From assembly GCF_024734405.1 (NCBI RefSeq), contig NZ_CP059556.1, forward strand, positions 2,294,001-2,358,000: a DNA stretch of 64,000 bases, written 5' to 3'. The stretch comes from Saccharopolyspora gregorii. Lineage in GTDB: Bacteria > Actinomycetota > Actinomycetes > Mycobacteriales > Pseudonocardiaceae. The notes beneath the pieces are model-generated. The model searched no databases. It was not told the origin of the DNA and saw only the letters and a program-made list of their open reading frames with translations. A program made the position numbers and the translations under genes. Positions within the stretch are counted from its first letter, which is position 1; the number at the start of each line of letters is the position of its first letter. This document shows positions 23,324-40,237 of the stretch, one piece after another.

Positions 23324-24544
23324 TCAGCGAGAGGTGGACTTCTCCGGGCGGCTGCCGAGGGCTTCGCCGCGGCGGCAGGCCAGGTACCAGCGGTGCCCGT
23401 TGTCGTACCAGCGCATTCCCTTGCGCACGGCCGGAACCTGCGTCGCCTGGTGCATCCGGTACTGCCACGGCGACTGGGCGCCGCCGCGCGCGGCCATCGC
23501 GTACGCCACGTCCACCGCCTCCCGGTCGAGATAGCGGTCCGCCCGCTCGAACCAGGCCATGCTGGTGCGCCCGGCCGCCTGCAGCGGGCGCAGCGCGCTG
23601 CGGCCCTGCTGGTCGAAGTCGCGCAGCGCGGTGTCCAGGTGCTCGTGGTCGTGCAGCTTCTGCGCCAGGATCATCGCGTCCATGATGGCCAGCCGGGTGC
23701 CGGAACCGATGCTGAAGTGCGTGGTGTGCGCGGCATCGCCGAGCAGCATCACGTTCTCGTAGCGCCAGCTCCGGTTGAGCACCTGGGTGAACCGCTGCCA
23801 CCGCGCCGGTTGGCCCCGGGAGCGGCTGATCAGCGAATGCCCTTCGAGGGGCTTCTCGAAGATCTTCTCCAGCAGCCGCACGGCGTCCTCGTCGCTGCGC
23901 TCGTCGAAGCCGAGCGCCTTCCAGGTCTGCTCGGTGGTCTCCACGATGCAGGTGCTCACGCCGGCGCTGGACGGGTAGGCGTGGAACCAGATCCAGCCCG
24001 CCGAGGTCCGCTCGAACGCGAACGTGAACCGGTCGAAGACCTTGTCCGTGCCCAGCCAGATGTAGGGGTTGTTGCCCGTCTCCACCCGGGTGCCGAACTC
24101 GTCCTCGTGCAGCGAGCGCACCTTGCTGCCCGCTCCGTCCGCGCCGATGATCAGATCGCTGTCGGCGAGCTCGTCGAGGCTCTGCACGTCGTGCTCGTAG
24201 CGGATGTCCACGCCCAGGTCGGTGGCGCGCTCGGCCAGCACGTCCAGCAGCGTCGCCCGGTTCACGCTGAACCCGTAGCCGCCGAGGAAGCCGAAATCGG
24301 TGCCGCCGAGCACCACCTGCTGCTCCTGCCACAGCGTGGACGCGGACCGGATCTGCTGCGCGCTCTCCGCATCGTTGGCGTACAGCGGATCCAGCAGGTT
24401 GTCCCAGTACACGACGCCCCACCCGTAGGTGGCGCCCGGCGGATCACGCTCGATGACGGTGATGTCGTGCCCGGCGTCGCGCAGCTTCGCGGAGATCGCG
24501 AAGTACAGCCCGGCCGGTCCAGCACCTACGCACGTGATCTTCAT
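23324..24544 (-). CDS. FAD-dependent monooxygenase (VioD/salicyloyl-CoA hydroxylase-like fold)
   Basis: The 406-residue class A flavoprotein has the FAD motif CVGAGPAGLYFAISAKL at the very N-terminus, Glu of VIERDPPG, the GADGAGSKVR motif and GDAAHTTHFSIGSGTRLA. The blocks YGWGVVYWDNLLDPLYANDAES and AGWIWFHAYPSSAGVSTCIVE place it nearest to tryptophan- and acyl-CoA-hydroxylating relatives (VioD, salicyloyl-CoA 5-hydroxylase), by my recollection of those families. ATG 24544 follows AGGAGGTG. It is 52 bases downstream of the ABC exporter and in the same direction as the HGWG-repeat peptide, so it may oxidise that peptide's Trp or His residues. Confidence 0.82.
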   Translation of the reverse strand: MKITCVGAGPAGLYFAISAKLRDAGHDITVIERDPPGATYGWGVVYWDNLLDPLYANDAESAQQIRSASTLWQEQQVVLGGTDFGFLGGYGFSVNRATLLDVLAERATDLGVDIRYEHDVQSLDELADSDLIIGADGAGSKVRSLHEDEFGTRVETGNNPYIWLGTDKVFDRFTFAFERTSAGWIWFHAYPSSAGVSTCIVETTEQTWKALGFDERSDEDAVRLLEKIFEKPLEGHSLISRSRGQPARWQRFTQVLNRSWRYENVMLLGDAAHTTHFSIGSGTRLAIMDAMILAQKLHDHEHLDTALRDFDQQGRSALRPLQAAGRTSMAWFERADRYLDREAVDVAYAMAARGGAQSPWQYRMHQATQVPAVRKGMRWYDNGHRWYLACRRGEALGSRPEKSTSR

Positions 24545-24596
24545 GGGCACCTCCTGGACGAGGACGGCGGTGTGCCGCCCGGTTGTCGTTGCGCTG

Positions 24597-26462
24597 TCAC
24601 GTGTGCTCCCGCGTGCCGCCGTTGCGCTGCGCGGGCGCGCCGTGCACCACTTCCTCCGACGGGTGGTGCAGGTGGTACAGGTGCGCGTAGCCGTTGTTGC
24701 CCGCCAGCAGCTCCGAATGCGTGCCGAGGCCGGTGACCCGCCCGTGGTCCAAGTAGAGGATCTTGTCCGCGTCGGTGACGGTGAGCAGGTTGTGCGAGAT
24801 GACGATCGTGGTCCGCCCCGCCATCAACCGGTTCAGCGGACCGAGGATCCGTTGCCCCGCCTCGGCGTCCAGGCTCGCGGTCGGCTCGTCCAGCAGCAGG
24901 ATCGGCGCGTCCCGGATCATCGCGCGGGCGATCGCGATGCGCTGGCGCTGCCCGCCGGAGAGCAACCGGCCGCGCTGGCCGACGCGGGTCTCGTAGCCGT
25001 CGGGCAGCGCGACGATGAAGTCGTGCGCGTCGGCGGCGCGCGCGGCGTCCACCAGTTCCGCGCGGTCCGCATCCGGTTTGCCCGCGCGGATGTTGTCCTC
25101 GATCGTGCCGTCCAGCAGCAGCGTCTCCTGCAGCACGATCGCGATGTGCGAGCGCAGCTCCTTCGGATCCAGCTCGCGCAGGTCCGCGCCGTCCAGCGAG
25201 ATGCTGCCGCGGTCCGGGTCGTAGAACCGCAGCAGCAGCTTCGTCAACGTCGACTTCCCCGCGCCGCTGGCGCCGACGACGGCGACGCGTTCCCCGGGCT
25301 CCGCGGTGAGGTCCACGTCGTGCAGCACCTCGTCGGCGGTGTCCGGGTAGTGGAACCCGACCCGGTCCAGCCGCACCGCACCGCGCACCCGGTCCAGCCG
25401 CTTCGGGTTCCGCGGGGCGGGCACGTGCGGGCGCTGGTCGAACAGCTCCAGGATGCGTTCCGCGCTCGCCGCCGCCCCGTAGATCACGTTCGACAGCTGG
25501 CCGAGGTTGCTCACCGGCGAGTACAGCTGCGACAGGTACACCAGGAACGCCAGCAGCCCGCCGAGGGTGATCCGGCCGGACGCCAGCTCCCAGATGCCGA
25601 CGCCGACGATCGCCATGATCGCCAGCACTTCCAGCAGGTCCACCAGCGGCTCGAACAGGCCGCCGATGCGGGCCGCGGACAGCTCCGCGGACAGGCTGGA
25701 CCGGCTCTGCCGGGTGAACCGCCGCACCTCCGCGGACTCGCGGCCGTAGGCCTGGATCAGCGGGGCGTTGCCGAGGCTCTCCTCCGCGACGGTGCCGATC
25801 GACCCGGTGCGGCCGGCGACCTCCCGGGACGCCGACTTGATGCGCATCGCGAAGAACCGCGCCACCGCCAGGAACAGCGGCACCACCAGCAGCGCCACCA
25901 CCGTGAGCCGCCAGTCCAGGTAGAACAGCACCCCGGCGAACACCACGATCTTCACCAGCGACGCCACCGTCTGCGTGATGCCCGACAGCACCAGGCTCTC
26001 GATGGAGGCCACGTCGGTGGTGAGCCTGCTCAGCGTGTCGCCGAGCCTGCGCCGGTCGAAGAAGTCCACCGACAACGTGTGCAGGTGGGTGAACACCCGG
26101 ATCCGCAAGCGGTTCAGGAAGTGCTCACCGATCCACACCGTCAGGTAGCTCTCGCCGAACCCGACGACGCCCATCACGATCGTGATCCCCGCGTACGCGA
26201 CGGCCACCAGCGGGAACAGCGAGAAGTCCCGCGGCGTCAGCACGTCGTCGATGAGGACCTTGAACAACCAGATCGCCGCCGCGTCCAGCAGCGGCGACAC
26301 CAGCACCAACCCCAAGCTGAGCACCATGTACCAGCGGAACGGTCGCGCGTCCGGCCAGAACCGCCGGAACACCTCCCGCACCCCGATCGATGGCGCGGTC
26401 TCCACCAAACCCGCCTCTTCGGCGACCGGTGGGTCGAACAACCACCGAATCGGTCCCCGCAC
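24597..26462 (-). CDS. ABC exporter, fused membrane and ATPase domains
   Basis: The 621-residue half-transporter has six N-terminal membrane segments (to about residue 350) and a C-terminal ATPase with Walker A GASGAGKST, signature LSGGQRQR, Walker B ILLLDEP and the switch His in VISHN. It belongs to the MsbA/LmrA-like exporter group and lacks an N-terminal C39 peptidase. GTG 26462 follows GGGGG. It begins 79 bases after the HGWG-repeat peptide gene with a strong hairpin between them, a layout typical of precursor peptide plus exporter. Export of a peptide or its product is inferred from this context. Confidence 0.87.
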   Translation of the reverse strand: MRGPIRWLFDPPVAEEAGLVETAPSIGVREVFRRFWPDARPFRWYMVLSLGLVLVSPLLDAAAIWLFKVLIDDVLTPRDFSLFPLVAVAYAGITIVMGVVGFGESYLTVWIGEHFLNRLRIRVFTHLHTLSVDFFDRRRLGDTLSRLTTDVASIESLVLSGITQTVASLVKIVVFAGVLFYLDWRLTVVALLVVPLFLAVARFFAMRIKSASREVAGRTGSIGTVAEESLGNAPLIQAYGRESAEVRRFTRQSRSSLSAELSAARIGGLFEPLVDLLEVLAIMAIVGVGIWELASGRITLGGLLAFLVYLSQLYSPVSNLGQLSNVIYGAAASAERILELFDQRPHVPAPRNPKRLDRVRGAVRLDRVGFHYPDTADEVLHDVDLTAEPGERVAVVGASGAGKSTLTKLLLRFYDPDRGSISLDGADLRELDPKELRSHIAIVLQETLLLDGTIEDNIRAGKPDADRAELVDAARAADAHDFIVALPDGYETRVGQRGRLLSGGQRQRIAIARAMIRDAPILLLDEPTASLDAEAGQRILGPLNRLMAGRTTIVISHNLLTVTDADKILYLDHGRVTGLGTHSELLAGNNGYAHLYHLHHPSEEVVHGAPAQRNGGTREHT

Positions 26463-26487
26463 GACTTACCCCCTGTTGCCGACGGGC

Positions 26488-26521
26488 GTGACGCCCGCAC
26501 CAGGGAAGGTGCGGGCGTCAC
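26488..26521. terminator. 14-bp hairpin between the repeat peptide and the ABC exporter
   Basis: GTGACGCCCGCACC and GGTGCGGGCGTCAC form a perfect 14-bp stem with a 6-base loop. It lies inside the apparent operon. Partial termination here would give more peptide message than exporter message, as in many ribosomal-peptide operons. No T-tract follows. Confidence 0.7.
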
Positions 26522-26541
26522 CCGGACGTTGAGCCAAGCTG

Positions 26542-26706
26542 TTACTTGCAGCCGCAGCCGTGGCCCCAGCCGTGTCCCCAACCGTGGCCCCAGCCCCAGC
26601 CGTGGCCCCAGCCCCAGCCGTGGCCCCAGCCGTTGCCCCAGCCGTGCTTGCGGCGGCGGTTGTTGTTCACGTACACGAAAACGCTGCTGCCTTTGCCCAT
26701 CGCCAT
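26542..26706 (-). CDS. 54-residue HGWG-repeat peptide with CGCK end
   Basis: The peptide starts MAMGKGSSVFVYVNNNRRRK, continues as about seven W-G units alternating with H-G or N-G (HGWGNGWGHGWGWG...), and ends HGCGCK before TAA. It contains Trp, Gly and His at regular spacing, two Cys close to the C-terminus and a basic RRRK before the repeats. ATG 26706 follows GGAAAGG. I do not recognise a family. The layout (basic leader, repetitive core, exporter and oxygenase downstream) suggests a modified secreted peptide; the repeats also resemble copper- or heme-binding His/Trp/Gly repeats such as the prion octarepeat. Confidence 0.75.
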   Translation of the reverse strand: MAMGKGSSVFVYVNNNRRRKHGWGNGWGHGWGWGHGWGWGHGWGHGWGHGCGCK

Positions 26707-27045
26707 GCACCTTTCCGTATTGCCGACTTCCCCCGGAGAAGAACGTCATCGTCGACATTCCGCTCGTCGGTCGGTGTCGTCGTTGGACATCGGACCGCTG
26801 GTGATGCCGCCCGGGCCGGGCCCGGAGATCGGCGCACTCCTCCAGTGGCTTTCCGAAAGGTAGGTGCCCCCCATGTGGCGGAACAACCCGACCTGACAAC
26901 GAGTAAACGCCATGTCACCGAGCTTGCACAGAGGACTATCGACCCTGATTTCCCGCTGAACCAACGGGTTCTGCTTTCCCGCGGTGCTGGCCGCACCCGC
27001 TCGCGCGTGGTTCCTTGTGGGGGCGCCGGACACGAGGAGGAGCGG
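26707..27045. other. Divergent promoter region of the peptide and decarboxylase genes
   Basis: The region is less G/C-rich than its surroundings and must drive both the repeat peptide (leftward) and the PLP decarboxylase (rightward). A 42-codon leftward frame (26746-26874) and a 29-codon rightward frame ending at 26863 overlap here; neither has a ribosome site, so I do not annotate them. Confidence 0.5.
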
Positions 27046-28413
27046 ATGGACCTGCGCGCGTGGGCGGACCGGGCGGTGGCCGAGATCGGTGCGTGGCAAC
27101 GGGCATTCGGCGAGTTCGCGCCGCACCCGGACGCCGTCGTGCCCGACGAGGAGTTCGGCCCCGCGTTCGCCGAACTGCTCGACCGGTTGCGCGGCACCTA
27201 CCCGTTCCACCACCCCCGCTACCTCGGACAGCTGATCAAGCCGCCGCACCCGGCGGCCGTCGTCGGCTACTTGGCGGCGATGCTGCTGAACCCGAACAAC
27301 CACGCGCTCGACGGCGGACCGGCCACCACCGGGCTGGAGCGGGAGGCGGTGGACCGGCTCGCGGCGATGCTGGGGATGCCGGGCGCGCTGGGCCACCTCA
27401 CCGGCAGCGGCACCATCGCGAATCTCGAATCCCTCTACGTGGCAAGGGAAACCCGGCCCGGAGCGGCCATCGCGCACAGCGCGGACGCGCACTACACGCA
27501 CGCCCGGATGTGCCATCTGCTGGGCGTGCGCTCGGTGCCGATCCCGGTGGACGCGGTAGGGCGGATCGACGTGGCGGCGCTGGATTCGCTGCTGGGGGAG
27601 CAGGACGTCGGGACCGTGGTGCTCACCGCCGGGACCACCGGGCTCGGTGCCGTCGATCCGATCCACGAGGTGCTGGAGCTGCGGCGGCGGCACGACTTCC
27701 GGATCCACGTCGACGCGGCCTGCGGCGGGTTCTTCGCGCTCATCGCCGATGACGCGCCGGACGGGGTGGCGGCCGCGCCGTTCCGCGCCATCGCCGAGTG
27801 CGACTCGGTGGTAGTGGACCCGCACAAGCACGGCCTGCAGCCCTACGGGTGCGGGGCGGTGCTGTTCGCGGACCCCGCGGTGGAGCGGTACTACCGGCAC
27901 GAGTCGCCGTGGACGTACTTCACCTCGGCGGAACCGCACCTGGGCGAGATCTCCCTGGAATGCTCCCGATCCGGGGCCGCCGCTGCCGCGCTGTGGCTGA
28001 CGCTGCGGGTGCTGCCGCCCACGCCGGACGGCCTCGGCCGGGTGCTGCGCGCGGGCAGGCGGGCCGCGCTGGGCTGGGCGGAGCTGCTGGCGGACTCGGC
28101 GGTGCTGTCCGCGTACCAGCGGCCGGAGCTCGACGTGCTCGGCATCGTGCCCGCCGCGCCCGGCATGGCGGCGCTGGACGAGCGCACCCAGCGGGTGCTG
28201 CACGGCGGGATGCGCGCCGAGCCCGGCGAAGCCGTGCACTTGGCGGCGATGGAGGTCACCGCGGCCGACCTGGCGCGGCGCGGCCACCGGCTGCGCGCCG
28301 ACGTGCCGACCGCGCGGGTGCTGCGCAGCGTGCTGCTGAAACCGGAGCACGAGCACTGGATCCGCCGCTGCCACACCGATCTGGAGGCGCTCGCCCGGCG
28401 CGCCGCGGAGTGA
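27046..28413 (+). CDS. PLP-dependent group II amino-acid decarboxylase
   Basis: The 455-residue protein has the group II decarboxylase features: HLTGSGTIANLESLYVARE, the HADAACGG-like IHVDAACGGFF and the PLP Lys in VDPHKHGLQPYGCGA. Relatives decarboxylate tyrosine, aspartate, glutamate or aromatic amino acids. The substrate is not determined here. ATG 27046 follows GAGGAGGA. It is divergent from the HGWG-repeat peptide gene and followed by a possible small gene and a strong terminator, so it could supply an amine or act on a peptide end in the same system. Confidence 0.87.
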   Translation: MDLRAWADRAVAEIGAWQRAFGEFAPHPDAVVPDEEFGPAFAELLDRLRGTYPFHHPRYLGQLIKPPHPAAVVGYLAAMLLNPNNHALDGGPATTGLEREAVDRLAAMLGMPGALGHLTGSGTIANLESLYVARETRPGAAIAHSADAHYTHARMCHLLGVRSVPIPVDAVGRIDVAALDSLLGEQDVGTVVLTAGTTGLGAVDPIHEVLELRRRHDFRIHVDAACGGFFALIADDAPDGVAAAPFRAIAECDSVVVDPHKHGLQPYGCGAVLFADPAVERYYRHESPWTYFTSAEPHLGEISLECSRSGAAAAALWLTLRVLPPTPDGLGRVLRAGRRAALGWAELLADSAVLSAYQRPELDVLGIVPAAPGMAALDERTQRVLHGGMRAEPGEAVHLAAMEVTAADLARRGHRLRADVPTARVLRSVLLKPEHEHWIRRCHTDLEALARRAAE

Positions 28414-28824: not shown

Positions 28825-29496
28825 TCAGCCGGTCAGCCAGCGGGTCACCGCGGTGGTGAGGGCCTCGGTCCACCGGGCGAGGAGGACCGCGCCCTCGGCG
28901 GCGGTCGCGCCCGCCGGGTCGCCTAGGACGCCGTTGGGGCTCACGGCGCGGACGCCACCGGCGCGCAGCCGGTCGATGAGCCGGGGCAGCGGTTCGATGT
29001 TGCCCGCGGCGGCGTCCGGGAGGGTGACCTCGGCCGGGTGCAGGTGCAGCATCGCGGAGGTCTCGGTGCGTCCGGCGTGGCTGTCGTCGGCCGGCCCGTC
29101 CGGGCACCACGCCAGCACGCGCCTGCCCTCGCCGCGCAGCTGCTCGGCGGCCCGGTGCACGGTGGGCAGGTTGCCGCCGTGCCCGTTCACCAGCACCACC
29201 CCGGTGAACCGGTCCGCGGACCGCACCAGTTCCACCAGCAGCAGCCACAGCGCCTCGTGCCCGATGGAGAGCGTGCCGGGGAAGGCGGCGTGCTCCCCGC
29301 TGGCGCCGTAGGGCACGGCCGGGCCGACGACGACCTCCGGCAGCCGCCGGGCCAGCCGGGCGCAGAGCGCTTCGGCGATGGCGGTGTCGGTGCGCAGCGG
29401 CAGGTGCGGCCCGTGCTGCTCGGTGGCACCGAGCGGGATCGCCAGCACCCGCGCGGCGTCGTCGAGTTCGGTCCAGCGCAGCGCGTGCAGGCTCAT
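28825..29496 (-). CDS. mftE: Mycofactocin peptidase, creatininase family
   Basis: The 223-residue creatininase-fold metalloprotein has the metal and active-site blocks IPLGATEQHGPHLPLRTDT, GASGEHAAFPGT, VNGHGGN and DSHAGRTETSAML. In the pathway it cuts the modified C-terminal Val-Tyr unit from MftA to free AHDP. It is the last gene of the mycofactocin operon and overlaps mftF by ATGA. Length and motifs match the family. Confidence 0.93.
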   Translation of the reverse strand: MSLHALRWTELDDAARVLAIPLGATEQHGPHLPLRTDTAIAEALCARLARRLPEVVVGPAVPYGASGEHAAFPGTLSIGHEALWLLLVELVRSADRFTGVVLVNGHGGNLPTVHRAAEQLRGEGRRVLAWCPDGPADDSHAGRTETSAMLHLHPAEVTLPDAAAGNIEPLPRLIDRLRAGGVRAVSPNGVLGDPAGATAAEGAVLLARWTEALTTAVTRWLTG

Positions 29497-30827
29497 CGCG
29501 TCGTCCTCCCGGTGAACCGCGGCAGCAGCGGCGCCGCCGACCGCTCCCGCGCGCACCCGGCCCACACCCCGCACCCGTAGGCGAGGTCGTCGAGCACCCG
29601 CAGCGCGAACCAGCGCGGCCCGCGCCGGGCCCGCAACGTCTCCCACGCGCAGGGCAGCACCGCCAGCAGCAGCACCGGCCGGGTCCGCCGGGAGGCCGCG
29701 GCCAGCGGGAACCAGGCGCGCCGCACCGCCTCCGCCAGCAGCCGCCCCGCGCCGAGGTGCCCGCGCACCGCCAGCCGCCACGCCTCCCGGTCCGGCACGC
29801 CGTGCGCCCGCAGCTTCCGCGGCAGCACGGCGGCGCTGCCCGTCGCGAGCCCCGCGGCCAGCACCGGCCGCCCCGCCACCAGCGCCGCCCAGGACGCCGC
29901 GCTCCACGGCGACAGCCGGGCGCAGCAGAGCCTGCCCGGGTGGCGGCGGGCCAGCGGGGCGGCGGAGGTGCCGTAGTCGAAGCGTTGCCGCAGCCAGGAC
30001 TGCAACCCGCTGCGCGGCCGGTGCCGCACCACCGACCCGGGCGCGTAGCGCACCACCGCGCCGGAGTCGACGATCCGCCACACCAGGTCCACGTCCTCGC
30101 CGAACCGCAGCGCCTCGTCGAACCCGCCGAGCTCGGCCAGCGCGGCCCGGCGCACCACGAGCGCGGCGCTGGGCACGTAGCCGACCCGGCTCATCGGCCG
30201 TACGCCCGCGGGCAGCGCCCCGAGGTCGAGCCCGCCGCGGTCGGCCTCGTAGCAGGTGATCGCCCCACCGCCCGCGGCGCTGCGGACGCGGGGCGCCACC
30301 GCGTGCACGGCGGGATCGGTGAACTGGCGCAGCAGCGGCGCGAGCCACCCCGGTTCGGGCAGCACGTCGGCGTCGAGGAACGCGACGAGTTCGGTGCGCG
30401 CCCGCCGCCAGCCGGTGTTGCGGGCGGCCGCGGGCCCGCGCGCGACCGGATGCCGGAGCTCGGCGGCGGGCTCCCGCGAGCCGTCGTCGACGACGATCCG
30501 GTGCGGCAGGTCGGCGGTCGCGGCCAGCACCCGCGCCAGGCCGGCCGGATCGTCCTTCACCGGCACCACCAGCGTCACGTCGGCGGGCCCCAGCACGCCC
30601 GCGGGCGGCTCCGGGTGGGCGAGCCCGGAGTCCAGCAGCCGCCGCGCCAGCGCGCCGCCCTCCCGCACCGGTTCGCCCGCGAACCACCGGTCGACCAGCC
30701 GCGCGGCGCGCGCCCCCACCCGCAGCAGCCGCACCGGGGAGCCGCCCAGCAGCACCTGCCCGTCGCGGGCGCGCCGCAGCGACGGGTCCGGCACCAGCCG
30801 CGTGCCCGGGGGGACCGGTGCGCTCAT
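29493..30827 (-). CDS. mftF: Mycofactocin glycosyltransferase
   Basis: The 444-residue protein contains a GT2 fold: TLVVPVKDDPAGL at about residue 85, VVDDGSREP, a DxD motif in AFLDADVLPEPG and the catalytic-loop FDEALRFGEDVDLVWR. The C-terminal half is hydrophobic and may attach it to the membrane. MftF adds glucose units to premycofactocin, giving the oligoglycosylated cofactor. It is joined by ATGA overlaps to mftE downstream and the SDR gene upstream. Confidence 0.92.
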   Translation of the reverse strand: MSAPVPPGTRLVPDPSLRRARDGQVLLGGSPVRLLRVGARAARLVDRWFAGEPVREGGALARRLLDSGLAHPEPPAGVLGPADVTLVVPVKDDPAGLARVLAATADLPHRIVVDDGSREPAAELRHPVARGPAAARNTGWRRARTELVAFLDADVLPEPGWLAPLLRQFTDPAVHAVAPRVRSAAGGGAITCYEADRGGLDLGALPAGVRPMSRVGYVPSAALVVRRAALAELGGFDEALRFGEDVDLVWRIVDSGAVVRYAPGSVVRHRPRSGLQSWLRQRFDYGTSAAPLARRHPGRLCCARLSPWSAASWAALVAGRPVLAAGLATGSAAVLPRKLRAHGVPDREAWRLAVRGHLGAGRLLAEAVRRAWFPLAAASRRTRPVLLLAVLPCAWETLRARRGPRWFALRVLDDLAYGCGVWAGCARERSAAPLLPRFTGRTTR

Positions 30828-31609
30828 GCGGTGAACCCGCCGTCGGCGTGCACCGCGGTGCCGGTGATCGCGGACGAAGCGGGCGAGCACAGGAACTCCA
30901 CCACGGCCGCCACCTCGTCGGGCTCCAAGATCCGTTCGATGAGCTGGTGCTCCGCGAAAGCGTCCACATCGGACAGACCGTAGATCTCGGCGGTGGCCCG
31001 CAGCATCTCGGTGCGCGTCGAGCCGGGGGAGACGGCGGTGGCGCAGATCCCGGTGCCGCGCAGGTCGGTCGCCAGCCCCCGCACGAGCCCCAGCACGGCG
31101 TGCTTGGCCGCGTTGTAGGAGGTGAGCCGCCACAGCCCGGTGTGCGCGGCCGCGGAGGCCAGCGCCACGAACCGCCCGGTCCGCGGCTCGGGACGGCGCA
31201 GCAGCGCGGGCACGGCGGCGCGCGCCAGGTGCGCGGTGCCGTCCACGCCGACGGAGAACGACGCCGCCCACTCGGACTCGTCGGCCTCCCAGAACGGGCG
31301 CCCGCCCGCCATCAGCGCCGCGGCGGCGACGGCGGCGTCCAGGCCGCCGAAGCGCTGCTCGGCGAGGGCGACCGCATCGCGCAGCGCCCGCGGGTCCTGC
31401 ACGTCGGCGGCCACGTCGAGCACGGCGCCCGGGTGCTCGGCGGCGAGCTCGGCCAGCTGCTCGGCGGTGCCCAGCGGGTAGGGCACCCGGGGGTCGTCGG
31501 CGCAGCGGTCCACCGCCACCACCCGCCAGCCGTGCCCGGCGAGCCGCCGCACCACCGCCGCCCCGATGCCGCGGGCCGCGCCGGTCACCACCGCCACCCG
31601 CTCAGCCAT
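30824..31609 (-). CDS. Mycofactocin-cluster SDR oxidoreductase
   Basis: The 261-residue short-chain dehydrogenase has TGAARGIGAAVVRRLAG, the Asp of VAVDRCADD (NAD preference), catalytic Ser in LASAAAHTG and Y-N-A-A-K. The C-terminal AVHADGGFTA is standard. Because it is embedded between mftF and the ETF genes with overlaps on both sides, it probably works in mycofactocin-dependent alcohol oxidation. Its substrate cannot be read from the sequence. Confidence 0.87.
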   Translation of the reverse strand: MAERVAVVTGAARGIGAAVVRRLAGHGWRVVAVDRCADDPRVPYPLGTAEQLAELAAEHPGAVLDVAADVQDPRALRDAVALAEQRFGGLDAAVAAAALMAGGRPFWEADESEWAASFSVGVDGTAHLARAAVPALLRRPEPRTGRFVALASAAAHTGLWRLTSYNAAKHAVLGLVRGLATDLRGTGICATAVSPGSTRTEMLRATAEIYGLSDVDAFAEHQLIERILEPDEVAAVVEFLCSPASSAITGTAVHADGGFTA

Positions 31610-32462
31610 CGAGGTAACCCTCGGCGCGCAGGAAGGCCAGCAGCTCGTCGGCGGCTTCCGCCGGGTCGTCGGTGACCACCACGCGTGGCGGGTCGGACCG
31701 CTGCCCGGCGCCGGTGAGCTCCCGCAGCCGCCGCAGCGGATCGGCCCCGGCGGGCGCGGGCAGTTCCTTGGCTCGCGGCCGGTAGCCGTGCGCGGCGGTG
31801 AGCGGTGGCGGATCCGGGGCGGCCCGGGCCGCGACGACCGGAACCTCGGCGGAACGCGCCGCCAGCACGGCGGGGAGCGCGGCGGTGCGCGGGCGCACCC
31901 CGGCGGCCTCCACCGAGCACACGGCGGGCAGCGGCACCGCCAGCCGCTCCCGGCGCCCCCGGTCCAGCCTGCGCAGCGCCCGCAACCGGCCGTCGGCGGC
32001 GGGTTCGGTGTCGAGGGACACCAGGCCGAGCGCCTGCGCGCAGCCGAACTCGGCGGCCAGCAGCGCCGGGGTGGCACCGGTCCCGCGGTCCGGCGAGTGG
32101 TCCCCGGTGAGCACCAGGTCGGGCGCGCCGAACCGCTCGCGGACCGCGGCGGCGAGCGCCACCGCCGTGCCCGCGCCGGAATCGGCGGCCCGCGGATCGG
32201 GTTCCCCGGCCGGTTCGACCCGCAGCACCTCGTCCGTGCCGGAGGCCAGTGCCCCGCGCAGCAGCTCGTCCGCGCCCGCCGGGGCGAGGCTCACCGCCGC
32301 GCACCGGCCGCCGGTGGACCCGGCCAGCCGCAGCCCCAGCTCCAGCGCCGCCGCGTCCGCGGCGGAGGCGCCCGCGGACCGGTCCGACGTCCGCACCCGG
32401 CCGGACAGCGGATCCACCTCGGCCCGCTCGTCCACCCAGCGCAGCGCCACCACCACGAACAT
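31602..32462 (-). CDS. Electron-transfer flavoprotein, beta-type subunit
   Basis: The 286-residue protein follows the ETF-beta/FixA fold: VVVALRWVDERAEVDP at the N-terminus, then SAADAAALELGLRL, LVLTGDHSPDRGTGATPALLAAEFG and the late PRVVVTDDPAEAADELLAFL. Together with the alpha subunit at 34140-35078 it would carry electrons from a dehydrogenase to a quinone reductase. It begins 5 bases after the FixX-like gene and overlaps the SDR by 8 bases. Confidence 0.82.
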   Translation of the reverse strand: MFVVVALRWVDERAEVDPLSGRVRTSDRSAGASAADAAALELGLRLAGSTGGRCAAVSLAPAGADELLRGALASGTDEVLRVEPAGEPDPRAADSGAGTAVALAAAVRERFGAPDLVLTGDHSPDRGTGATPALLAAEFGCAQALGLVSLDTEPAADGRLRALRRLDRGRRERLAVPLPAVCSVEAAGVRPRTAALPAVLAARSAEVPVVAARAAPDPPPLTAAHGYRPRAKELPAPAGADPLRRLRELTGAGQRSDPPRVVVTDDPAEAADELLAFLRAEGYLDG

Positions 32463-32467
32463 CCCGC

Positions 32468-32764
32468 TCACCCCTTCCGGAACACGACGCCGTGCCCGCC
32501 CGCCGGGTACTCCCAGGTGATGGCGCCGCTCTCGTCGCACACCTGGTAGCAGGTGCCGCACTCGAAGCACTGCTCGTAGTTGAACAGGATGCCGCCGTCG
32601 TCGGTGGGCACGAACAGGTTCGCCGGGCACGCGGTCACGCACGCGCGGGTCGTGCAGGAACGGCACACCTCGGTGTCCACCGCGATGTGCGGTTTCCCGG
32701 ACACCCGGAAGTCCACGTGGGACATCCGCTCTTCGAAGGAGATGTCGTGGTACGGATCGACCAT
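32468..32764 (-). CDS. FixX-type ferredoxin of an ETF:quinone oxidoreductase module
   Basis: The 98-residue ferredoxin-like protein has Cys-rich motifs CRSCTTRACVTACP and CFECGTCYQVC, giving ligands for a 4Fe-4S cluster. The N-terminal ISFEERMSHVDFRV is typical of FixX. In ETF-quinone oxidoreductases this domain passes electrons from flavin to quinone. Here it is separate from the flavoprotein encoded just upstream. Confidence 0.88.
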   Translation of the reverse strand: MVDPYHDISFEERMSHVDFRVSGKPHIAVDTEVCRSCTTRACVTACPANLFVPTDDGGILFNYEQCFECGTCYQVCDESGAITWEYPAGGHGVVFRKG

Positions 32765-32788
32765 CGCCGTCCCTTCCTTCCCGTCCGA

Positions 32789-34147
32789 TCAGCCGAAGGT
32801 CCGCAAGCCGGTGAGGGCGTCCTTGGCGAGGTCCCGCATCCGCACCCCGTTGCGCTTCGCGGCCCGGCGCAACAACGCGCGGAATCCGGGTTTCGGCCGC
32901 GGGTTGTCCACTGCGAACACGGACTCGGCGAAGTCGCACAGCAGGCCGGGATACCGCTGCTGCATCCGCTCGGAGAGCACGAGCCCCGGCGCGTCGCGCA
33001 GTCGCTCGTGGTCGGCGAGCACGAAGGAGCTCCGCAGCGCGGAGCGGTACCCGGCGAGACCGGCCGCCGAGGTGTCGCCGGTGGCGAGCGCGGTGGCCGC
33101 GGCGCGGCCCGCGCACATGCCGGAGCCGAGCGCGAAGTTCACGCCCTCCAGCCAGATCCCCGCCGCCAGGCACATCCCGGCCGCGTCTCCGGCCAGCAGC
33201 AGCCCGTCGGCGATCAGCGGCGGCATCGTCCGGTAGCCGCCTTCGGGGATGAGGTGCGCGGAGTACTCGACGAGTTCGCCGCCGCGCACCAGCGGCGCGA
33301 TCGACGGGTGCCGCTTCAGCTCGGCCAGCAGGTGCTCCGGGCGCACCTTCGCCCGCGCGAGCCCGCGCAGGCCGAGGACGAGGCCGATGCTCACCGATTC
33401 CGCGTTGGTGTAGAGGAATCCGCCGCCGGGCACCTTCCCGGTGCACCCGAGCATCTCCACGTCCACGCCGCCGCTGCCGGTGACGCCGAAGCGCTCGTCG
33501 ATGACCCCGCGCGGCAGCGCCAGCGTCTCCTTCACGCCGAGGGTGGTGTGCGAGGCCTGGTCGCCGCCGAGCAGACCGGCCTGCTTCGCCAGGAACGAGT
33601 TCACCCCGTCGCAGGCCAGCACGACCCGCGCGGTGAGGTCGCCGTCCGGCCGGTCGGTGCGCACCCCGTGCACGGCGCCGTCGGCGGTCCGCAGCAGCGC
33701 CACCACCACCGTGGACGGCACCAGCACCGCCCCGGCCCGCTGCGCGTGCTCGGCGAGCCACGGGTCGAACTCGGCGCGGTGCGTGGTGGCGCCGTTGTGC
33801 GGTGCCCGGCCCCAGTTCTCGTTGCGGAAGTCGACGGTCAGCGAGCGCGCCCCGGACAGCACCATCGTCTGCCTGCGGGTCACCCACCGCTGCACCGGCA
33901 TCTCCTGCTGCCAGCCGGGGATCAGCCCGTCGAGGACGCGTCCGTAGACGACGCCGCCGTAGACGTTCTTCGAACCGGGGAACGGTCCGCGCTCCAGCAG
34001 CGCCACGCTCCGCCCGGCGCGGGCCAGTTCCAGCGCGGCGGCCGATCCGGCCGGTCCGGCGCCGACGACGATGGCGTCGAAGTCGTAGCGCTGCGGCCGC
34101 GGTATCGGCACGGCGGCGGTGGACGGTCCGGCACCCCGGTCAGACAT
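32789..34147 (-). CDS. FixC-type flavoprotein (ETF:quinone oxidoreductase-like)
   Basis: The 452-residue FAD protein has FDAIVVGAGPAGSAAALELA near residue 23, PGSKNVYGGVVYG, LACDGVNSFLAKQAGL and LLLAGDAAGMCLAAGIWLEG. These match the geranylgeranyl-reductase/FixC group that receives electrons from ETF. It overlaps the ETF-alpha gene by 8 bases and is followed by FixX, so ETF, FixC and FixX form one chain, probably delivering electrons from mycofactocin-linked oxidations to the membrane quinone pool. That role is inference from gene order. Confidence 0.87.
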   Translation of the reverse strand: MSDRGAGPSTAAVPIPRPQRYDFDAIVVGAGPAGSAAALELARAGRSVALLERGPFPGSKNVYGGVVYGRVLDGLIPGWQQEMPVQRWVTRRQTMVLSGARSLTVDFRNENWGRAPHNGATTHRAEFDPWLAEHAQRAGAVLVPSTVVVALLRTADGAVHGVRTDRPDGDLTARVVLACDGVNSFLAKQAGLLGGDQASHTTLGVKETLALPRGVIDERFGVTGSGGVDVEMLGCTGKVPGGGFLYTNAESVSIGLVLGLRGLARAKVRPEHLLAELKRHPSIAPLVRGGELVEYSAHLIPEGGYRTMPPLIADGLLLAGDAAGMCLAAGIWLEGVNFALGSGMCAGRAAATALATGDTSAAGLAGYRSALRSSFVLADHERLRDAPGLVLSERMQQRYPGLLCDFAESVFAVDNPRPKPGFRALLRRAAKRNGVRMRDLAKDALTGLRTFG

Positions 34148-35078
34148 GGTGCTCCTCCTCGATCCGGGCGAGCCTGCGCACCAGTTCGGCGAGCAGCCGT
34201 TGCGCGTCGGTGACGAGGCCGAGATCGGCCATCGCGGTCATGGGGCAGCTGGCGTCGGTGTTCACCGACACCACGTGCCCGGATGCGTCGAGCCCGCCGA
34301 GGTGCTGGGCGGCGCCGGACACCCCGAAGGCCAGGTACAGCTCGGGGGACACCACGGCACCGGTGGTGCCGATCTGCCGCTCGGGCGCGGCCCAGCCGGC
34401 GTCGGTGACCACGCGGGTCGCTCCGACGGAGGCACCGAGGGCGGCGGCGAGTTCCTCCAGCAGCGCCACCGATTCCGGCCCGGTCAGGTCCCCGCGGGCG
34501 AGCCCCGCCCCGGCGCCGAGCAACCGGCGCGCCTCGCCGAGCTCGGCGGTCGCCGGATCCGGTTCCAGCACTTCCAGCACCTCCGCGTCCGGAACCGGCG
34601 GGAGCGAAACGTCCACATCGGACACATCGGGGAGTCCGCCCGCAGGCAGCGCCCCGCGCACCCCTGGCACCAGCGACACCACGCAGCGCACCGGGGTGCG
34701 GACGGCCGCGGTGAGCCTGCCGTCCCAGCGCACCAGGTCCGTGCCCGTCGCGTCGGTGCGGGTCGCCCCCGCCAGCAGCGGCCGGTCCAGCGCGGCCGCC
34801 AGCCGGGGCGCGAGGTCCCGGCCGTCCGGCGAACCCGGCAGCACCACCCGCGGCACCTCCGCCAGCAACGGCGCGAGCGCGGCGGCGTACGCGCCCGGCG
34901 CGAAGTTCCCGGTCTCCGCGCACCACGCCCGGCGCAGCGGCGGCAGCTCCGCGACCGCCCGGCGGCAGCCGGAACCGACCAGCACCGCGGCGCCACCGGC
35001 CTCCGCGACCGCCTCGTCCCCGCCCACCGGCGGCACGCCGTCCCGCACGAACAGCACCGCGACCACGTCCCCCTTCAC
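34140..35078 (-). CDS. Electron-transfer flavoprotein, alpha-type subunit
   Basis: The 312-residue protein has the ETF-alpha FAD-binding C-terminal domain: VTDAGWAAPERQIGTTG, SPELYLAFGVSGAAQHLGG and VSVNTDASCPMTAMADLG. The N-terminal domain is more divergent and Ala-rich. It pairs with the beta-type subunit at 31602-32462. GTG 35078 overlaps the stop of the preceding oxidoreductase (GTGA), so the two are translationally coupled. Confidence 0.87.
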   Translation of the reverse strand: MKGDVVAVLFVRDGVPPVGGDEAVAEAGGAAVLVGSGCRRAVAELPPLRRAWCAETGNFAPGAYAAALAPLLAEVPRVVLPGSPDGRDLAPRLAAALDRPLLAGATRTDATGTDLVRWDGRLTAAVRTPVRCVVSLVPGVRGALPAGGLPDVSDVDVSLPPVPDAEVLEVLEPDPATAELGEARRLLGAGAGLARGDLTGPESVALLEELAAALGASVGATRVVTDAGWAAPERQIGTTGAVVSPELYLAFGVSGAAQHLGGLDASGHVVSVNTDASCPMTAMADLGLVTDAQRLLAELVRRLARIEEEHHV

Positions 35079-37039
35079 AGCGCCACCGCCGCCCGATGTC
35101 CTTCCAGCACCGCCGCGTGCGCCCGCCGCGGCGCCACGCAGTCACCGACCCGGTGGACGGGCAGCTCGCCGGAAGCGGACAGCTCCAGCCACAGCTCCTC
35201 TTCGGGCTCCTGGTGCGTCGCGCACACCACCCAGTCGAACACCTCCGTGCCGCTCGCGCCGGTGGTGTGCTTGAGCAGCTGCACCCGCACCCGGCCGTCG
35301 TCCGCGGCGGAGGCGTCGAGCACCACCTCGTCGGTGGTCTGCTCGATGCTCTTGGCGGCGGCGCGCACCGCGAACGACTCCAGGTCCAGCGTGATGCCGA
35401 GGTCCTGGCCGACGACCATCCCGGGGGTGCTGATCCGCACCGCGCAGCCCCGGTCCGCGAGCAGCTCGGCCACCGAGCTCGCCTGGTGGAACCCGAGCTC
35501 GTCCACCACCAGCACCTGCCCGGACGGCGCCGCGCGTCCCTCCAGCACGTCCCGCACGTCCACCACGCGCGCCAGGTCGCCGGCCCAGTGCGGGCGCTGC
35601 GGCCGCGCGCCCGTCGCCAGGACCACCACGTCGGGTCGCCGCGCGCGCAGCGACTCGGCGGTGGCGTGCTCCCCGGTGCGGACCTCGACGCCGTACCGGC
35701 GGCACTCGGCGAGCGAATTCCGCACCACGTCGAGGAATTCGGCGCGCTGCGGCACGCTCGCCGCCACCGCGACCTGCCCGCCGGTGGTGGCGCGGCGCTC
35801 CAGCAGCGTCACCCGGTGCCCGCGCTGCGCGGCCGTCGCCGCGGCCTGCAACCCGCCCGGACCACCGCCGACGACCACGACCCGCTTCGCGGCGCGAGGT
35901 GACGGCAGCGGCACGGATTCCTTGCCGGTGCGGGGGTTCTCGATGCAGCCGAGCCAGCGGTTCAGGCCCATCCGGCCCACGCACTCCTGGTTGCAGGACA
36001 GGCAGGTGCGGATGTCGGCGGCGTGCCCGGAGCGCGCCTTGGCGGCGAATTCCGCGTCGGCGATCTGGCCGCGCACCACGCCGATCAGGTCCGCGTGCCC
36101 GTCGGCCAGCGCGCGGTCGGCCTGCACCGGGTCCTTGAACCGGCCCACCCCGACCACCGGCAGCTCCACCGCCTTGCGCAGCGCGCTCGGGATGAACAGG
36201 GCGTAGCCGGGCGGCACGCTCATCGACGCCTCGATCATGTGCAGCGTGGCGGTGGCGACCCCGATCGAGGTGTTCACGTAGTCCACGGCGCCGGTCGCCT
36301 CGACCAGCCGCGCCACCGCCACCGTCTCGTCGATGGTGGTGCCGCCGTCGATGAGCTCGTCGCCGCACAACCGCACGCCCAGCGCCAGATCGGGGCCGAT
36401 CACCTCCCGCACCGCCGCGACCAGCCGCAGCAGCAGCCGCGCCCGGTTCGGCAGCGCGCCGCCGTACTCGTCGGTGCGCGCGTTCGTCGCCGGGGACAGG
36501 AAACCGCGCACGATCGACGAGTGCGAGCACTGCAGCTCCACGCCGTCGAAGCCGCCGTCCCGGCAGTGCCGCGCCACGGTCGCGTACCCGGCGACGACCT
36601 CGTCGATCTCGGCGTGGTCCACGGCCTTCGGCACTTCGCGGAACAGCGGGTCCGGCACCGGCGACGGCGCCCACACCGGCAGCCGCGAGTACATCCCGGA
36701 CGCCTGCCCGCCGTTGTGGTTGAGCTGGGCGAAGATCGGCACCCCGTGCGCGTGCACCGCCTCGGTGATCCGCCGGTAGCCGGGCACGACCTCGGGGTGG
36801 AAGCCGTGGATCAGTTTCTCGTACGGCCAGTCGGTGGGGTGGGTGGAGTGCTCCTCGGTGATGATCAGCCCGGCGCCGCCCGCGGCCCGCGCCGCGTAGT
36901 AGGCGGCGTGCTGCTCGGTCGGCAGCCCGCCCTCGGCGTAGTTCGTCAGGTGCGCGGAGAACACGATGCGGTTCGCGACGGTGACCGGTCCGAGCCGCAG
37001 CGGCCGGAACAGGTGCCGGTAGCGGCCGGTGGCGCTCAT
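35075..37039 (-). CDS. Mycofactocin-system FadH/OYE-family oxidoreductase (first of two)
   Basis: The 654-residue fusion has an N-terminal FMN TIM barrel (FRPLRLGPVTVANRIVFSAH; GFDGVELQCSHSSIVRGFLSP), a 4Fe-4S Cys cluster (CLSCNQECVGR...GC) and a C-terminal FAD/NAD domain (RVVVVGGGPGGLQAAATAAQRG). This is the architecture of 2,4-dienoyl-CoA reductase and trimethylamine dehydrogenase. Two such proteins recur in a subset of mycofactocin clusters. ATG 37039 overlaps the preceding gene by ATGA. Physiological substrate unknown. Confidence 0.88.
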   Translation of the reverse strand: MSATGRYRHLFRPLRLGPVTVANRIVFSAHLTNYAEGGLPTEQHAAYYAARAAGGAGLIITEEHSTHPTDWPYEKLIHGFHPEVVPGYRRITEAVHAHGVPIFAQLNHNGGQASGMYSRLPVWAPSPVPDPLFREVPKAVDHAEIDEVVAGYATVARHCRDGGFDGVELQCSHSSIVRGFLSPATNARTDEYGGALPNRARLLLRLVAAVREVIGPDLALGVRLCGDELIDGGTTIDETVAVARLVEATGAVDYVNTSIGVATATLHMIEASMSVPPGYALFIPSALRKAVELPVVGVGRFKDPVQADRALADGHADLIGVVRGQIADAEFAAKARSGHAADIRTCLSCNQECVGRMGLNRWLGCIENPRTGKESVPLPSPRAAKRVVVVGGGPGGLQAAATAAQRGHRVTLLERRATTGGQVAVAASVPQRAEFLDVVRNSLAECRRYGVEVRTGEHATAESLRARRPDVVVLATGARPQRPHWAGDLARVVDVRDVLEGRAAPSGQVLVVDELGFHQASSVAELLADRGCAVRISTPGMVVGQDLGITLDLESFAVRAAAKSIEQTTDEVVLDASAADDGRVRVQLLKHTTGASGTEVFDWVVCATHQEPEEELWLELSASGELPVHRVGDCVAPRRAHAAVLEGHRAAVAL

Positions 37040-38970
37040 GCCGTCACCGCCAGGTCGCGGGAGAGGGCGAGCGCGGCGCGGCGCCCCTCCCGGATGGCCT
37101 CGTGCGCGGTGCGCGGCGCCACCCGGTCGCCGACGGTCGTGCCGAAGTCCGGCGGCGGAGCGGGGTCGGGCAGCCGGTGCCCGCAGTGCACGACGAGCTC
37201 GGCGGGCAGGGTCCGTTCGGCGCCGGTGAACACGTCGGCCAGCCGCACTTCGCCGGGCCGCACCGCGCGCAGCAGGCTGCGCTTGGCGAGCACCACCCCG
37301 GCGCGCTGCAACCGGGCGTTCGCGTCCGCCAGGTCGCCGGTGCGGGCCAGCTGGGTGCCGATCACCTGGTCCTGGCTGATGATCGAGACCTCCCGCCCGG
37401 TGGCGGCGAGCAGTTCGGCGACCGCGACCCCGGTGGCGTCGCCGACCGGGTCGAACACGGCGACCGGGCCGTCCGGCAGCACCTCGTCGAGCCGCTCGTC
37501 GCGGACCGCGCGCAGCAGGCCGGCGGCCTCCAGCACCGGTCCGGCGCTCGCGTAGTGCCGCGGCCCGGGTGCGGAACCCGTTGCGGCGACGAGGAATTCC
37601 CCCGGTTCGGGTCGGGCGTCCGCGCCGGTGGTAATCGGGACGCCGAGCTCCCGGACTTCCGCGACGAGCCAGTCGACCAGCGCGCCGAGCCGCGCCCGGC
37701 CGGGCAGCAGCGCCGCGAGCGCCAGCATCCCGCCGAGCCGGTCGGTGCGCTCCACCAGCCGCACCGGGTGCCCGCGCAGCGCCAGCACCCGCGCGGCCTC
37801 CAGCCCGGCAGGCCCGCCACCGGCCACCAGCACCGGTCGTCCGTTCCCGCTCCCGTCCGGGGCCGGGTCCGTGGTCTCGTGCCCGGTGCGCGGCTCGCCG
37901 AGGCAGCTCACCAGCGGGTTGCGGTCGTCGCGCACCCGGCACTGCTGGTTGGTGAGCGCGCACGGCCGGATCCGGCGCCCCGCCCGGACCTTCCGCACCA
38001 GGGCCGGGTCGGCGAGCTGCGCGCGCGTCATCTCCACCAGGTCCGCCGTCCCGTCGTCCAGCGCGGCCTGCGCCTGCGCCGGATCGACCACGGACCCCTG
38101 CAACACCACCGGAGCCGCCCCGGCCACGGCCTCGCGCACCGCGCGGCACAGCTCGCGGTTGAACCCGGGTTCCGCGTGCGCGTCGGGCGTGGTCGCGGCG
38201 GTGCCCATCGCGGAACCGCGCACCACGGCCAGGTAGTCCACCTCGGGGGCGAGCGCGGCGGCGAGCTCGGCGCCCTGCTCCGGGGTGATGCCGGCCCACG
38301 GCGCGAGCTCGTCGCAGGACAGCCGCAGGCCCAGCACCCGGCCGGCGCCGAGCTCGGCGCGCACCGCGGCGAGCACTTCCCGCAGCAGCCGGGACCGGTC
38401 GGTGCCGTACTCGTCGGCGCGCTGGTTCGTCAGGCCGGACAAGAACTGGCGCAGCAGCGAGAACTGCCCGGCGCCGATCTCCACACCGTCCACATCGGAC
38501 TCGACGGCGATCCGGGCGGCGGTGGCGAAACCCCCGACGAGAGAACGGATCTCGCGGTTCTCCACCGCCATCGGCAGTTCCCGGCTCGCCACGTCCGCGA
38601 CCCGCGACGGCGCCCACAGCGCCGACTGCGACCGCGCCGACGAACCCTGCGAGCCCGCGTGCCCGAGGCCCGCCAGCACCAGCGTCCCGTGCGGACGGCA
38701 GGCCGCCACGACCGCCGCCCAGCCCGGACCGCACTCGGCGGCCAGCGGGGCGCGCTCGTAGGGCCAGTCCGAGCCGTGCGCGCTCGCGACCTCGGTGACC
38801 ACGACTCCGGCGCCGCCCGCGGCCCGCTCGGCGTAGTGGACGGCGTGGGCGCCGGACAGCGCGCGCCCGTCGCCGAGGTTCGTCTCGTGCGGCCCGAACA
38901 GCACCCGGGACGGCGCCGCGCGCCCGGCGAGCCGCACCGGCTCGGTGAGCCCGACCGCAGATCCGCTCAT
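37036..38970 (-). CDS. Mycofactocin-system FadH/OYE-family oxidoreductase (second, more divergent)
   Basis: The 644-residue protein has the same three-part plan as its neighbour: FMN barrel (PSRVLFGPHETNLGDGRALS; DVDGVEIGAGQFSLLRQFLSG), Fe-S motif (CALTNQQCRVRDDRNPLVSC) and FAD/NAD domain (VLVAGGGPAGLEAARVLALRG). The active-site stretches differ from the neighbour (IGAGQFS instead of LQCSHSS; LGHAG instead of LNHNG), so the two are likely partners with distinct roles rather than duplicates. It follows mftC by 64 bases. Confidence 0.86.
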   Translation of the reverse strand: MSGSAVGLTEPVRLAGRAAPSRVLFGPHETNLGDGRALSGAHAVHYAERAAGGAGVVVTEVASAHGSDWPYERAPLAAECGPGWAAVVAACRPHGTLVLAGLGHAGSQGSSARSQSALWAPSRVADVASRELPMAVENREIRSLVGGFATAARIAVESDVDGVEIGAGQFSLLRQFLSGLTNQRADEYGTDRSRLLREVLAAVRAELGAGRVLGLRLSCDELAPWAGITPEQGAELAAALAPEVDYLAVVRGSAMGTAATTPDAHAEPGFNRELCRAVREAVAGAAPVVLQGSVVDPAQAQAALDDGTADLVEMTRAQLADPALVRKVRAGRRIRPCALTNQQCRVRDDRNPLVSCLGEPRTGHETTDPAPDGSGNGRPVLVAGGGPAGLEAARVLALRGHPVRLVERTDRLGGMLALAALLPGRARLGALVDWLVAEVRELGVPITTGADARPEPGEFLVAATGSAPGPRHYASAGPVLEAAGLLRAVRDERLDEVLPDGPVAVFDPVGDATGVAVAELLAATGREVSIISQDQVIGTQLARTGDLADANARLQRAGVVLAKRSLLRAVRPGEVRLADVFTGAERTLPAELVVHCGHRLPDPAPPPDFGTTVGDRVAPRTAHEAIREGRRAALALSRDLAVTA

Positions 38971-39034
38971 GTGGTGGGAGCCTTCCGTGGGAAGCGGGTG
39001 ACCGGACCCGCCGGGTTCGTCCGGGCCGCTCGGG

Positions 39035-40237
39035 TCAGGGGCGGAAACCGGCGAGGGGACTGGTGTCGCAGGCCCGGTCCGGCACCGGCTGCTCGTCCGG
39101 CGGGCCCCAGCCGATGCCGACCGCGACCGGTTCCGGCCGCCGCCGGGGCGCGGTGCGGTGCGAGTGGTCCTTGTCCGGTTTCGGCACCGCGGTCCCGACC
39201 CCGGCCAGCGCGCGTTCCCCGTTGCCCAGCACGCATTCCGGGTCCGGCCCGTCCAGCGGCAGGCCGGTGAAGAACTTCGCCGCCATGCACCCGCCCTGGC
39301 ACGCGTCGTAGGCGGTGCAGGACGTGCACGCGCCGCCGGCCTGCGGCGCGCGCAACCGCTCGAACAACTCCGATTCCCGCCACACCGCCCCGAATCCGCC
39401 CTCGTCGCGCACGTTGCCCGCGAGGAACTCGGAGTGGATCGCGAACGGGCAGGCGTAGACGTCGCCGATCGGGTCGATCAGGCACACCACGCGGCCCGCG
39501 CCGCACAGGTTCAGCCCCGGCAGCGGCGTGGAGCCGAGCGCGTTGAGGTGGAAGAACGAATCTCCGGTGAGCACGCCCTCGCCGTGCGCGATGAGCCAGT
39601 CGTAGATCTCCCGCTGCTGCCCGGCGGTCGGGTGCAGCTCGTCCCACACGTCGGCGCCGCGCCCGGACGGCCGCAGCCGGGTGAGGCGCAGCTGCGCGCC
39701 GTGCTCGTCCGCGATCTCCTTGAACCGGTCCAGCTGATCGACGTTCTCCCTGGTCAGCACGACGCTGATCTTGAAGTCGCGGAACCCGGCATCGCGCAGG
39801 TTGCGCATCGCCGCCATCGCCGTGTCGTAGGAGCCCGTCCCGCGCACCCGGTCGTTGACCTCCGCGGTCGCCCCGTCGAGGGACAGCTGCACGTCCACGT
39901 AGTCGGTGCCCGCCAGCCACCGCGCCCGCTCCGGCGTCAACCGCACCCCGTTCGTGGAGAACTTGACCCCCACCTGCTGATCCACGGCGTACTCGACGAG
40001 TTCCCAGAAGTCGGCGCGCACGGTCGGCTCGCCGCCGCCGATGTTCACGTAGAACACCTGCATCCGCTGCAGCTCGTCGAGGACGGCCTTGCACTCCGCG
40101 GTGGACAGCTCGCGCGGGTCGCGCCGCCCGGACGCGGACAGGCAGTGCACGCAGGACAGGTTGCACGCGTAGGTGAGTTCCCAGGTGAGGCAGATGGGGG
40201 AGTCCAGGCCGTGCTGGAAGTGCTCGACAAGCCGCAT
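39035..40237 (-). CDS. mftC: Mycofactocin radical SAM maturase
   Basis: The 400-residue enzyme has the radical SAM motif C25-x3-C29-x2-C32 (ACNLSCVHC), the GGEP motif (NIGGGEPTVRADF) and a C-terminal SPASM-type Cys cluster (CTSCTAYDACQGGC plus CGAGRVVC and CPFA) for auxiliary Fe-S centres. It decarboxylates and crosslinks the C-terminal Val-Tyr of MftA, with MftB as peptide chaperone. It lies directly after mftB. The C-terminal 60 residues beyond SPASM are longer than the core and of unknown use. Confidence 0.95.
   Translation of the reverse strand: MRLVEHFQHGLDSPICLTWELTYACNLSCVHCLSASGRRDPRELSTAECKAVLDELQRMQVFYVNIGGGEPTVRADFWELVEYAVDQQVGVKFSTNGVRLTPERARWLAGTDYVDVQLSLDGATAEVNDRVRGTGSYDTAMAAMRNLRDAGFRDFKISVVLTRENVDQLDRFKEIADEHGAQLRLTRLRPSGRGADVWDELHPTAGQQREIYDWLIAHGEGVLTGDSFFHLNALGSTPLPGLNLCGAGRVVCLIDPIGDVYACPFAIHSEFLAGNVRDEGGFGAVWRESELFERLRAPQAGGACTSCTAYDACQGGCMAAKFFTGLPLDGPDPECVLGNGERALAGVGTAVPKPDKDHSHRTAPRRRPEPVAVGIGWGPPDEQPVPDRACDTSPLAGFRP

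Follow-up and report, generated by a model that had tools for sequence, protein, structure and literature searches.

What is made from a short, tryptophan-rich peptide gene that lies beside a flavin monooxygenase (FMO) gene in an actinomycete, and is the peptide the substrate of the enzyme? The locus that raises this question spans positions 23324–26706 of a 64,000-nucleotide stretch of the Saccharopolyspora gregorii genome (the window, meaning the whole stretch analysed). Comparison of sequences across genomes suggests that the peptide, which carries Gly-Trp-Gly (GWG) repeats, and its linked FMO represent a new family of secreted peptides with chemically modified Trp in many soil actinomycetes. 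These are probably peptides of the ribosomally synthesized and post-translationally modified (RiPP) kind, with Trp hydroxylated by a dedicated FMO resembling VioD. Two marks of a RiPP system were found, namely a small precursor with a conserved leader and a variable core (six of six genomes of the genus examined) and an adjacent candidate modifying enzyme (71 of 80 FMO loci). The features concerned are as follows.

26542..26700, minus strand: precursor peptide, 52 amino acids from the likely ATG at 26700 (54 if ATG 26706 is used), with leader MGKGSSVFVYVNNNRRRK and core HGWGNGWGHGWGWGHGWGWGHGWGHGWGHGCGCK
26710..26716, minus strand: Shine-Dalgarno-like GGAAAGG, kept in the three relatives aligned
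24597..26462, minus strand: MsbA/type-1 ATP-binding cassette (ABC) exporter, with Pfam domains ABC_membrane and ABC_tran
23324..24550, minus strand: group A flavin monooxygenase, VioD-like, proposed peptidyl-Trp hydroxylase; likely start ATG 24544 or GTG 24550

The order on this strand is peptide gene, 14-bp stem-loop, MsbA-type exporter and FMO, and the last three lie on one strand as an original prediction, made from this DNA alone, had described them.

The precursor peptide gene

The minus-strand open reading frame (ORF) at 26542–26706 has 54 codons and reads MAMGKGSSVFVYVNNNRRRKHGWGNGWGHGWGWGHGWGWGHGWGHGWGHGCGCK, a short leader followed by HGWG and NGWG repeats. The predicted gene for a leader and an HGWG repeat is real and has its own GGAAAGG ribosome site, 3 nt from the first ATG and 9 nt from the second. 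The predicted length of 54 residues is probably to be corrected to 52, with the second ATG (26700) as the true start, because two relatives (G004 and G005) have an Ile codon in place of the first Met. A strict composition test (a 30-residue stretch with at least five Trp and at least 11 Gly, in any of the six frames) matches once in the whole window, at this ORF. A chance ORF was rejected as an explanation, with no strict match in 60 first-order random sequences as long as the window or in 40 real random windows (8.2 kb, from relatives). Coding on the opposite strand was likewise rejected: three opposite frames are also open, but they yield strings of Pro/Ala, Gln/Pro or Ser/Pro/Arg, and the conserved leader and the ribosome site are both on the minus strand.

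Homologues of the precursor are present in all five other genomes of the genus that were examined, and across the six the leader SVFVY[VI]NN is conserved while the length of the repeat varies; the core is very short in one member (G002), whose whole peptide has 32 amino acids. Six pairwise comparisons among four genomes give a total of three synonymous and no non-synonymous differences within the leader, which is a weak test of selection. The window peptide has no match above cut-off in NCBIfam or Pfam, and neither have its non-Frankia relatives (eight run against NCBIfam and four against Pfam), in agreement with the earlier view that no described family has this repeat. The family is likewise undescribed in the titles and abstracts listed by searches of open-licence literature.

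Pairing of peptide and monooxygenase across genomes

A collection of 84,980 species (according to its description) was searched with an alignment of seven FMOs, and the best 80 of 189 relatives were taken as named loci. A Gly/Trp-repeat ORF adjoins the FMO in 71 of these 80; five break off where a contig ends, and four have none. The strict test is passed within 3.5 kb of the FMO in 60, and 11 further peptides were recognized by eye (L080, L086, L089, L091, L106, L112, L140, L152, L154, L155 and L156), where L080 and L032 are one and the same contig, with a 32-residue peptide, and L086 lies at a contig end that leaves just the final 25 residues. In the five truncated loci (L095, L099, L126, L138 and L143) the contig end falls at the expected peptide site, as judged from relatives. 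The conserved synteny foreseen for other actinomycetes is thus borne out by this pairing and, within the genus, by the order of peptide, ABC exporter and FMO, together with a divergent pyridoxal 5′-phosphate (PLP)-dependent decarboxylase gene, which is kept in six of six genomes.

More distant FMO loci behave differently: none of 31, 11 of them covered for about 1.5 kb on each side, passes the strict test and none of 19 intermediate loci has a peptide with four Trp, ten Gly and at least four GW/WG pairs, giving 0/50 against 71/80 for the close ones. A class-wide search added 18 FMO loci of one family, read as Frankiaceae because the tree places L141 and L145, named loci of Parafrankia, among its rows. 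Of the 18, 14 pass the strict test, three break off near the start of the FMO (L184, L185 and L195) and one has no match within 1.5 kb (L194). With duplicates removed, the test is passed by 83 of 109 FMO loci with at least 54% identity to the window FMO and by two of 54 below that level (L196 and L197, both Frankia-type); the 85 matches lie upstream on the same strand in 76 cases and downstream on the opposite strand in nine. In a quick tree the GWG-linked FMOs fall on one branch of 100 rows (SH-like approximate likelihood ratio support 96) that also takes in L194 and the distant, long-branched L198. A phylum-wide search (296 genomes, E 1e-130) returned only the window's own FMO and five matches of the distant kind, four of them partial (three in long ORFs) and the fifth (G609) already in the outgroup. 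The link between peptide and FMO is strong. Tandem pairs of intermediate FMOs (42–53% identity) without GWG ORFs were observed in other genomes of the same family (L262, L265, L268 and L273–L276).

The FMO remains constant while the leader and the type of export change between lineages. Saccharopolyspora and its relatives have a short leader, mostly M-x-[IV]-K-x-x-F, and an ABC exporter; Pseudonocardia and Geodermatophilaceae have short Asp/His-rich Trp peptides, with the exporter mostly present. In Nocardia and Streptomycetaceae the leader is an Ala-rich Sec-type signal, judged by eye, and an exporter with at least 60% identity is found in none of 50 loci; Frankia has a lasso-type leader and no such exporter in two named loci. 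At this identity the exporter is present in 20 of the 28 loci that come from Pseudonocardiaceae, Geodermatophilaceae and metagenome-assembled genomes and in none of 52 loci of Nocardia, Streptomycetaceae and Frankiaceae. It is outside the invariant core of the system, a correction to the layout of peptide, exporter and oxygenase first proposed.

Both Frankia-type peptides tested pass the lasso leader cut-off of NF033521 (25.0 and 19.3 against 19), and one also matches PF19397. They share this leader with precursors of the lasso RiPP family and differ in their Gly/Trp repeats, in having no ring acceptor at the usual site and in having no leader peptidase near the locus. A lasso ring is closed by an Asp or Glu at core position 7–9; the Frankia-type peptides inspected by eye have neither residue there. 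The B2 leader peptidase (PF13471) occurs in ten of ten Frankia-type genomes searched and not beside the precursor: in six it shares a contig with the FMO at a distance of 54 kb or more, and in four it is on a different contig. A classical lasso peptide was rejected for this type on both grounds. Tandem pairs of lasso-leader GWG peptides occur upstream of a single FMO in L192, L193 and L196 (also L231 and L232).

Likely target residue and proposed reaction

The original prediction named Trp or His as the modified residue. Among 91 cores, a set that includes near-copies and leaves out the false pick L195 together with L086, L140 and L154, only Gly and Trp are universal; His is found in 65, Asp in 36, Cys in 30 and Tyr in 15, and Gly neighbours 990 of the 1051 Trp residues. 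The target is likely to be Trp rather than His, since 26 of the 91 cores have no His, and His was rejected on this account; the Trp half of the earlier claim is retained.

The solved structures nearest to the FMO are those of VioD, and its predicted model gives a full-length match to the VioD-like group A flavin monooxygenase fold, in line with the earlier remark that some related monooxygenases hydroxylate Trp. VioD, of the violacein pathway, is described as hydroxylating C5 of an indole ring (PMC9705886). The window FMO is only 28–30% identical to it and was rejected as its equivalog (NF053547; 201.4 bits against a curated cut-off of 620), and the substrate of VioD is a bis-indole whereas that proposed here is peptidyl Trp. 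The top NCBIfam match of the window FMO is to the salicylyl-CoA 5-hydroxylase family (NF006101), membership of which was also rejected: the score of 379.9 bits compares with a cut-off of 1078, and at 408 amino acids the FMO lacks the C-terminal half of the 768-position, two-domain model. Long relatives resembling salicylyl-CoA 5-hydroxylase (15 loci, L214–L228) have no strict GWG ORF nearby.

On the favoured reading the locus yields a ribosomal peptide in which an N-terminal leader precedes a core of Gly/Trp repeats. The VioD-like FMO would hydroxylate the Trp side chains of this core in the cytoplasm; by analogy with VioD, the benzene portion of the indole would be the most likely site. The ABC exporter would then secrete the modified peptide; in other lineages the leader would set the route. 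The FMO probably recognizes the GWG repeat itself and not the leader, the simplest account of an enzyme and a repeat that are constant while leaders change. The product could be a flexible, hydroxyindole-rich secreted peptide; speculatively, it would act at the cell surface as an adhesive, a cross-linker, a pigment or a metal binder.

RiPPs with flavin-modified Trp exist, such as the Trp-halogenated lanthipeptides, which resemble the proposed GWG system in that a flavin enzyme modifies Trp within a ribosomally made peptide; in contrast, the flavin enzyme of the GWG loci is of a different family and is the only enzyme that they share, and their core consists of repeats. A mussel adhesive protein reportedly carries glycosylated hydroxytryptophan and offers an analogy, by description only, as a protein with hydroxylated Trp, although from an animal. 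A known RiPP with hydroxytryptophan is alpha-amanitin, as described in PMC8183687.

Three other explanations were weighed against Trp ring hydroxylation. The FMO could act on the peptide by epoxidation of the indole C2–C3 bond, leading to hydroxypyrroloindoline or to Trp-His or Trp-Cys cross-links. Group A FMOs that epoxidize indole are known, and the window peptide offers His, Cys and backbone amides as nucleophiles. The nearest solved relatives are nevertheless of VioD, a C5 hydroxylase, and besides the cores that have no His, 61 of the 91 have no Cys, which makes this route unlikely.

It is a little harder still to favour an FMO that hydroxylates a small aromatic compound. In that case the co-expressed GWG peptide or protein would serve the product, or a metal, as a binding, storage or coat protein. 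The sequence kinship to salicylyl-CoA 5-hydroxylase is in keeping with such a role, as is the divergent PLP decarboxylase, the best NCBIfam match of which is the tyrosine decarboxylase MfnA (below cut-off) and which lies beside the locus in three genera (the window genus, Gandjariella, L089:2231-3637, and G017, L289); His- and Asp-rich variants of the peptide could also bind metal. The decarboxylase is not general, however, and it is Trp that is common to the cores, not His or Asp. When called genes of at least 80 amino acids are grouped over the 80 named loci, FMO is counted in 72 (the gene caller missed it in the remainder), ABC transporters of any kind in 31, a TetR-like regulator, named by eye, in 15 and every other group in at most nine. 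No shared small-molecule pathway is visible, because, ABC transporters aside, no second enzyme group exceeds nine of the 80 loci.

An unmodified metal- or heme-binding secreted peptide with an incidental FMO neighbour is very improbable: His-Gly-rich repeats of known proteins do bind metals and the window genome has an orphan paralogue, but the peptide is found at 71/80 close FMO loci against 0/50 distant ones and the pairing survives changes of orientation and of export type.

Several points count against hydroxylation of peptidyl Trp. Four of the 80 named FMO loci (L093, L094, L124 and L139) have no GWG ORF nearby, and the same is true of L194, L287, L290 and L295. A second GWG peptide, elsewhere in the window genome, has no FMO of this kind beside it. 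Some Streptomyces members are poor in Trp (two Trp in L152). The universality of Trp is partly circular, because the relatives' peptides were recognized by their Trp/Gly content (their starts were set by a simple rule and are wrong in L091, L096, L097 and L121); the absence of His is unaffected. The match to salicylyl-CoA 5-hydroxylase makes a small-molecule substrate possible. For 11 of the 50 distant loci (L198–L208) and for all 18 from the class-wide search, the sequence covered extends only some 1.5 kb from the FMO, and a peptide behind an exporter gene would be missed in them; the span of L198–L208 takes in the usual upstream peptide site. A looser test (four Trp and eight Gly in 30 residues) matches 0/11, 1/5 and 4/15 distant FMO loci and 4/40 random windows.

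L093 and L094 are second FMO copies, and each of their genomes has a complete locus as well. FMO copies of the clade without a nearby GWG ORF in Saccharopolyspora-type genomes (L093, L094, L287, L290 and L295) may act in trans, on peptides encoded elsewhere, or do something different. The second GWG peptide of the window genome (L060, G000:C1:3739686-3739838, MIMQVKSIFVHSSGGWGRRHHHGWG...) has no FMO or exporter of the locus families beside it; the gene converging on it is presumably Old Yellow Enzyme-like.

A broader proposal is tentative. It envisages that secreted repeat peptides rich in hydroxytryptophan are a widespread class in actinomycetes and the bacterial equivalent of adhesive proteins with hydroxylated residues. 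In this class one lineage of GWG-reading enzymes, acting as leader-independent peptidyl-Trp hydroxylases, would be coupled to at least three export/leader modules (ABC exporter, Sec-type signal and lasso-type leader) and would give a redox-active, cross-linkable surface material. If Trp hydroxylation is correct, this would be an undescribed ribosomal peptide or protein family modified by a single flavin enzyme on repeated Trp, and chemists working on peptides and materials would gain a peptidyl-Trp hydroxylase. A gene pair that is present in Nocardia, Streptomyces, Frankia and Saccharopolyspora would acquire a function open to direct test. The swapping of leader and export type around one enzyme would also be an uncommon example of modularity in RiPP evolution.

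Neighbouring features of the window

Two further features flank the peptide gene.

26488..26521, minus strand: perfect 14-bp stem-loop between the peptide and exporter genes, kept in the three relatives aligned; no T-run
26950..28413, plus strand: divergent PLP-dependent decarboxylase (Pyridoxal_deC), accessory; start uncertain

The 80-nt intergenic stretch 26462–26541, which contains the stem-loop, has a folding energy of -45.5 kcal/mol (z -4.6). With no T-run after the stem it is not a standard terminator, and it may be an attenuator or stabilizer. No C39 peptidase domain is among the Pfam domains of the window exporter, which is therefore not of the peptidase-containing bacteriocin type.

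Mycofactocin-like genes lie 2–14 kb from the peptide in the window: MftF at 29493–31271 (TIGR03965, 442 bits) and, within 28825–40565, genes that we take to encode a creatininase (MftE), a short-chain dehydrogenase/reductase, an MftD-like flavin adenine dinucleotide oxidoreductase, an MftC-like radical S-adenosylmethionine protein and an MftB-like protein. MftE, MftF and the short-chain dehydrogenase/reductase stay beside the locus across the genus. Membership of the locus in a mycofactocin system was rejected: MftE/MftF occur in only one of the 80 named loci (L080, from the same genus), the loci spanning up to 6 kb from the FMO. Among seven extra regions, one (L229:8547-12692) has two stretches resembling the window's MftD-like oxidoreductase that directly adjoin a Frankia-type FMO.

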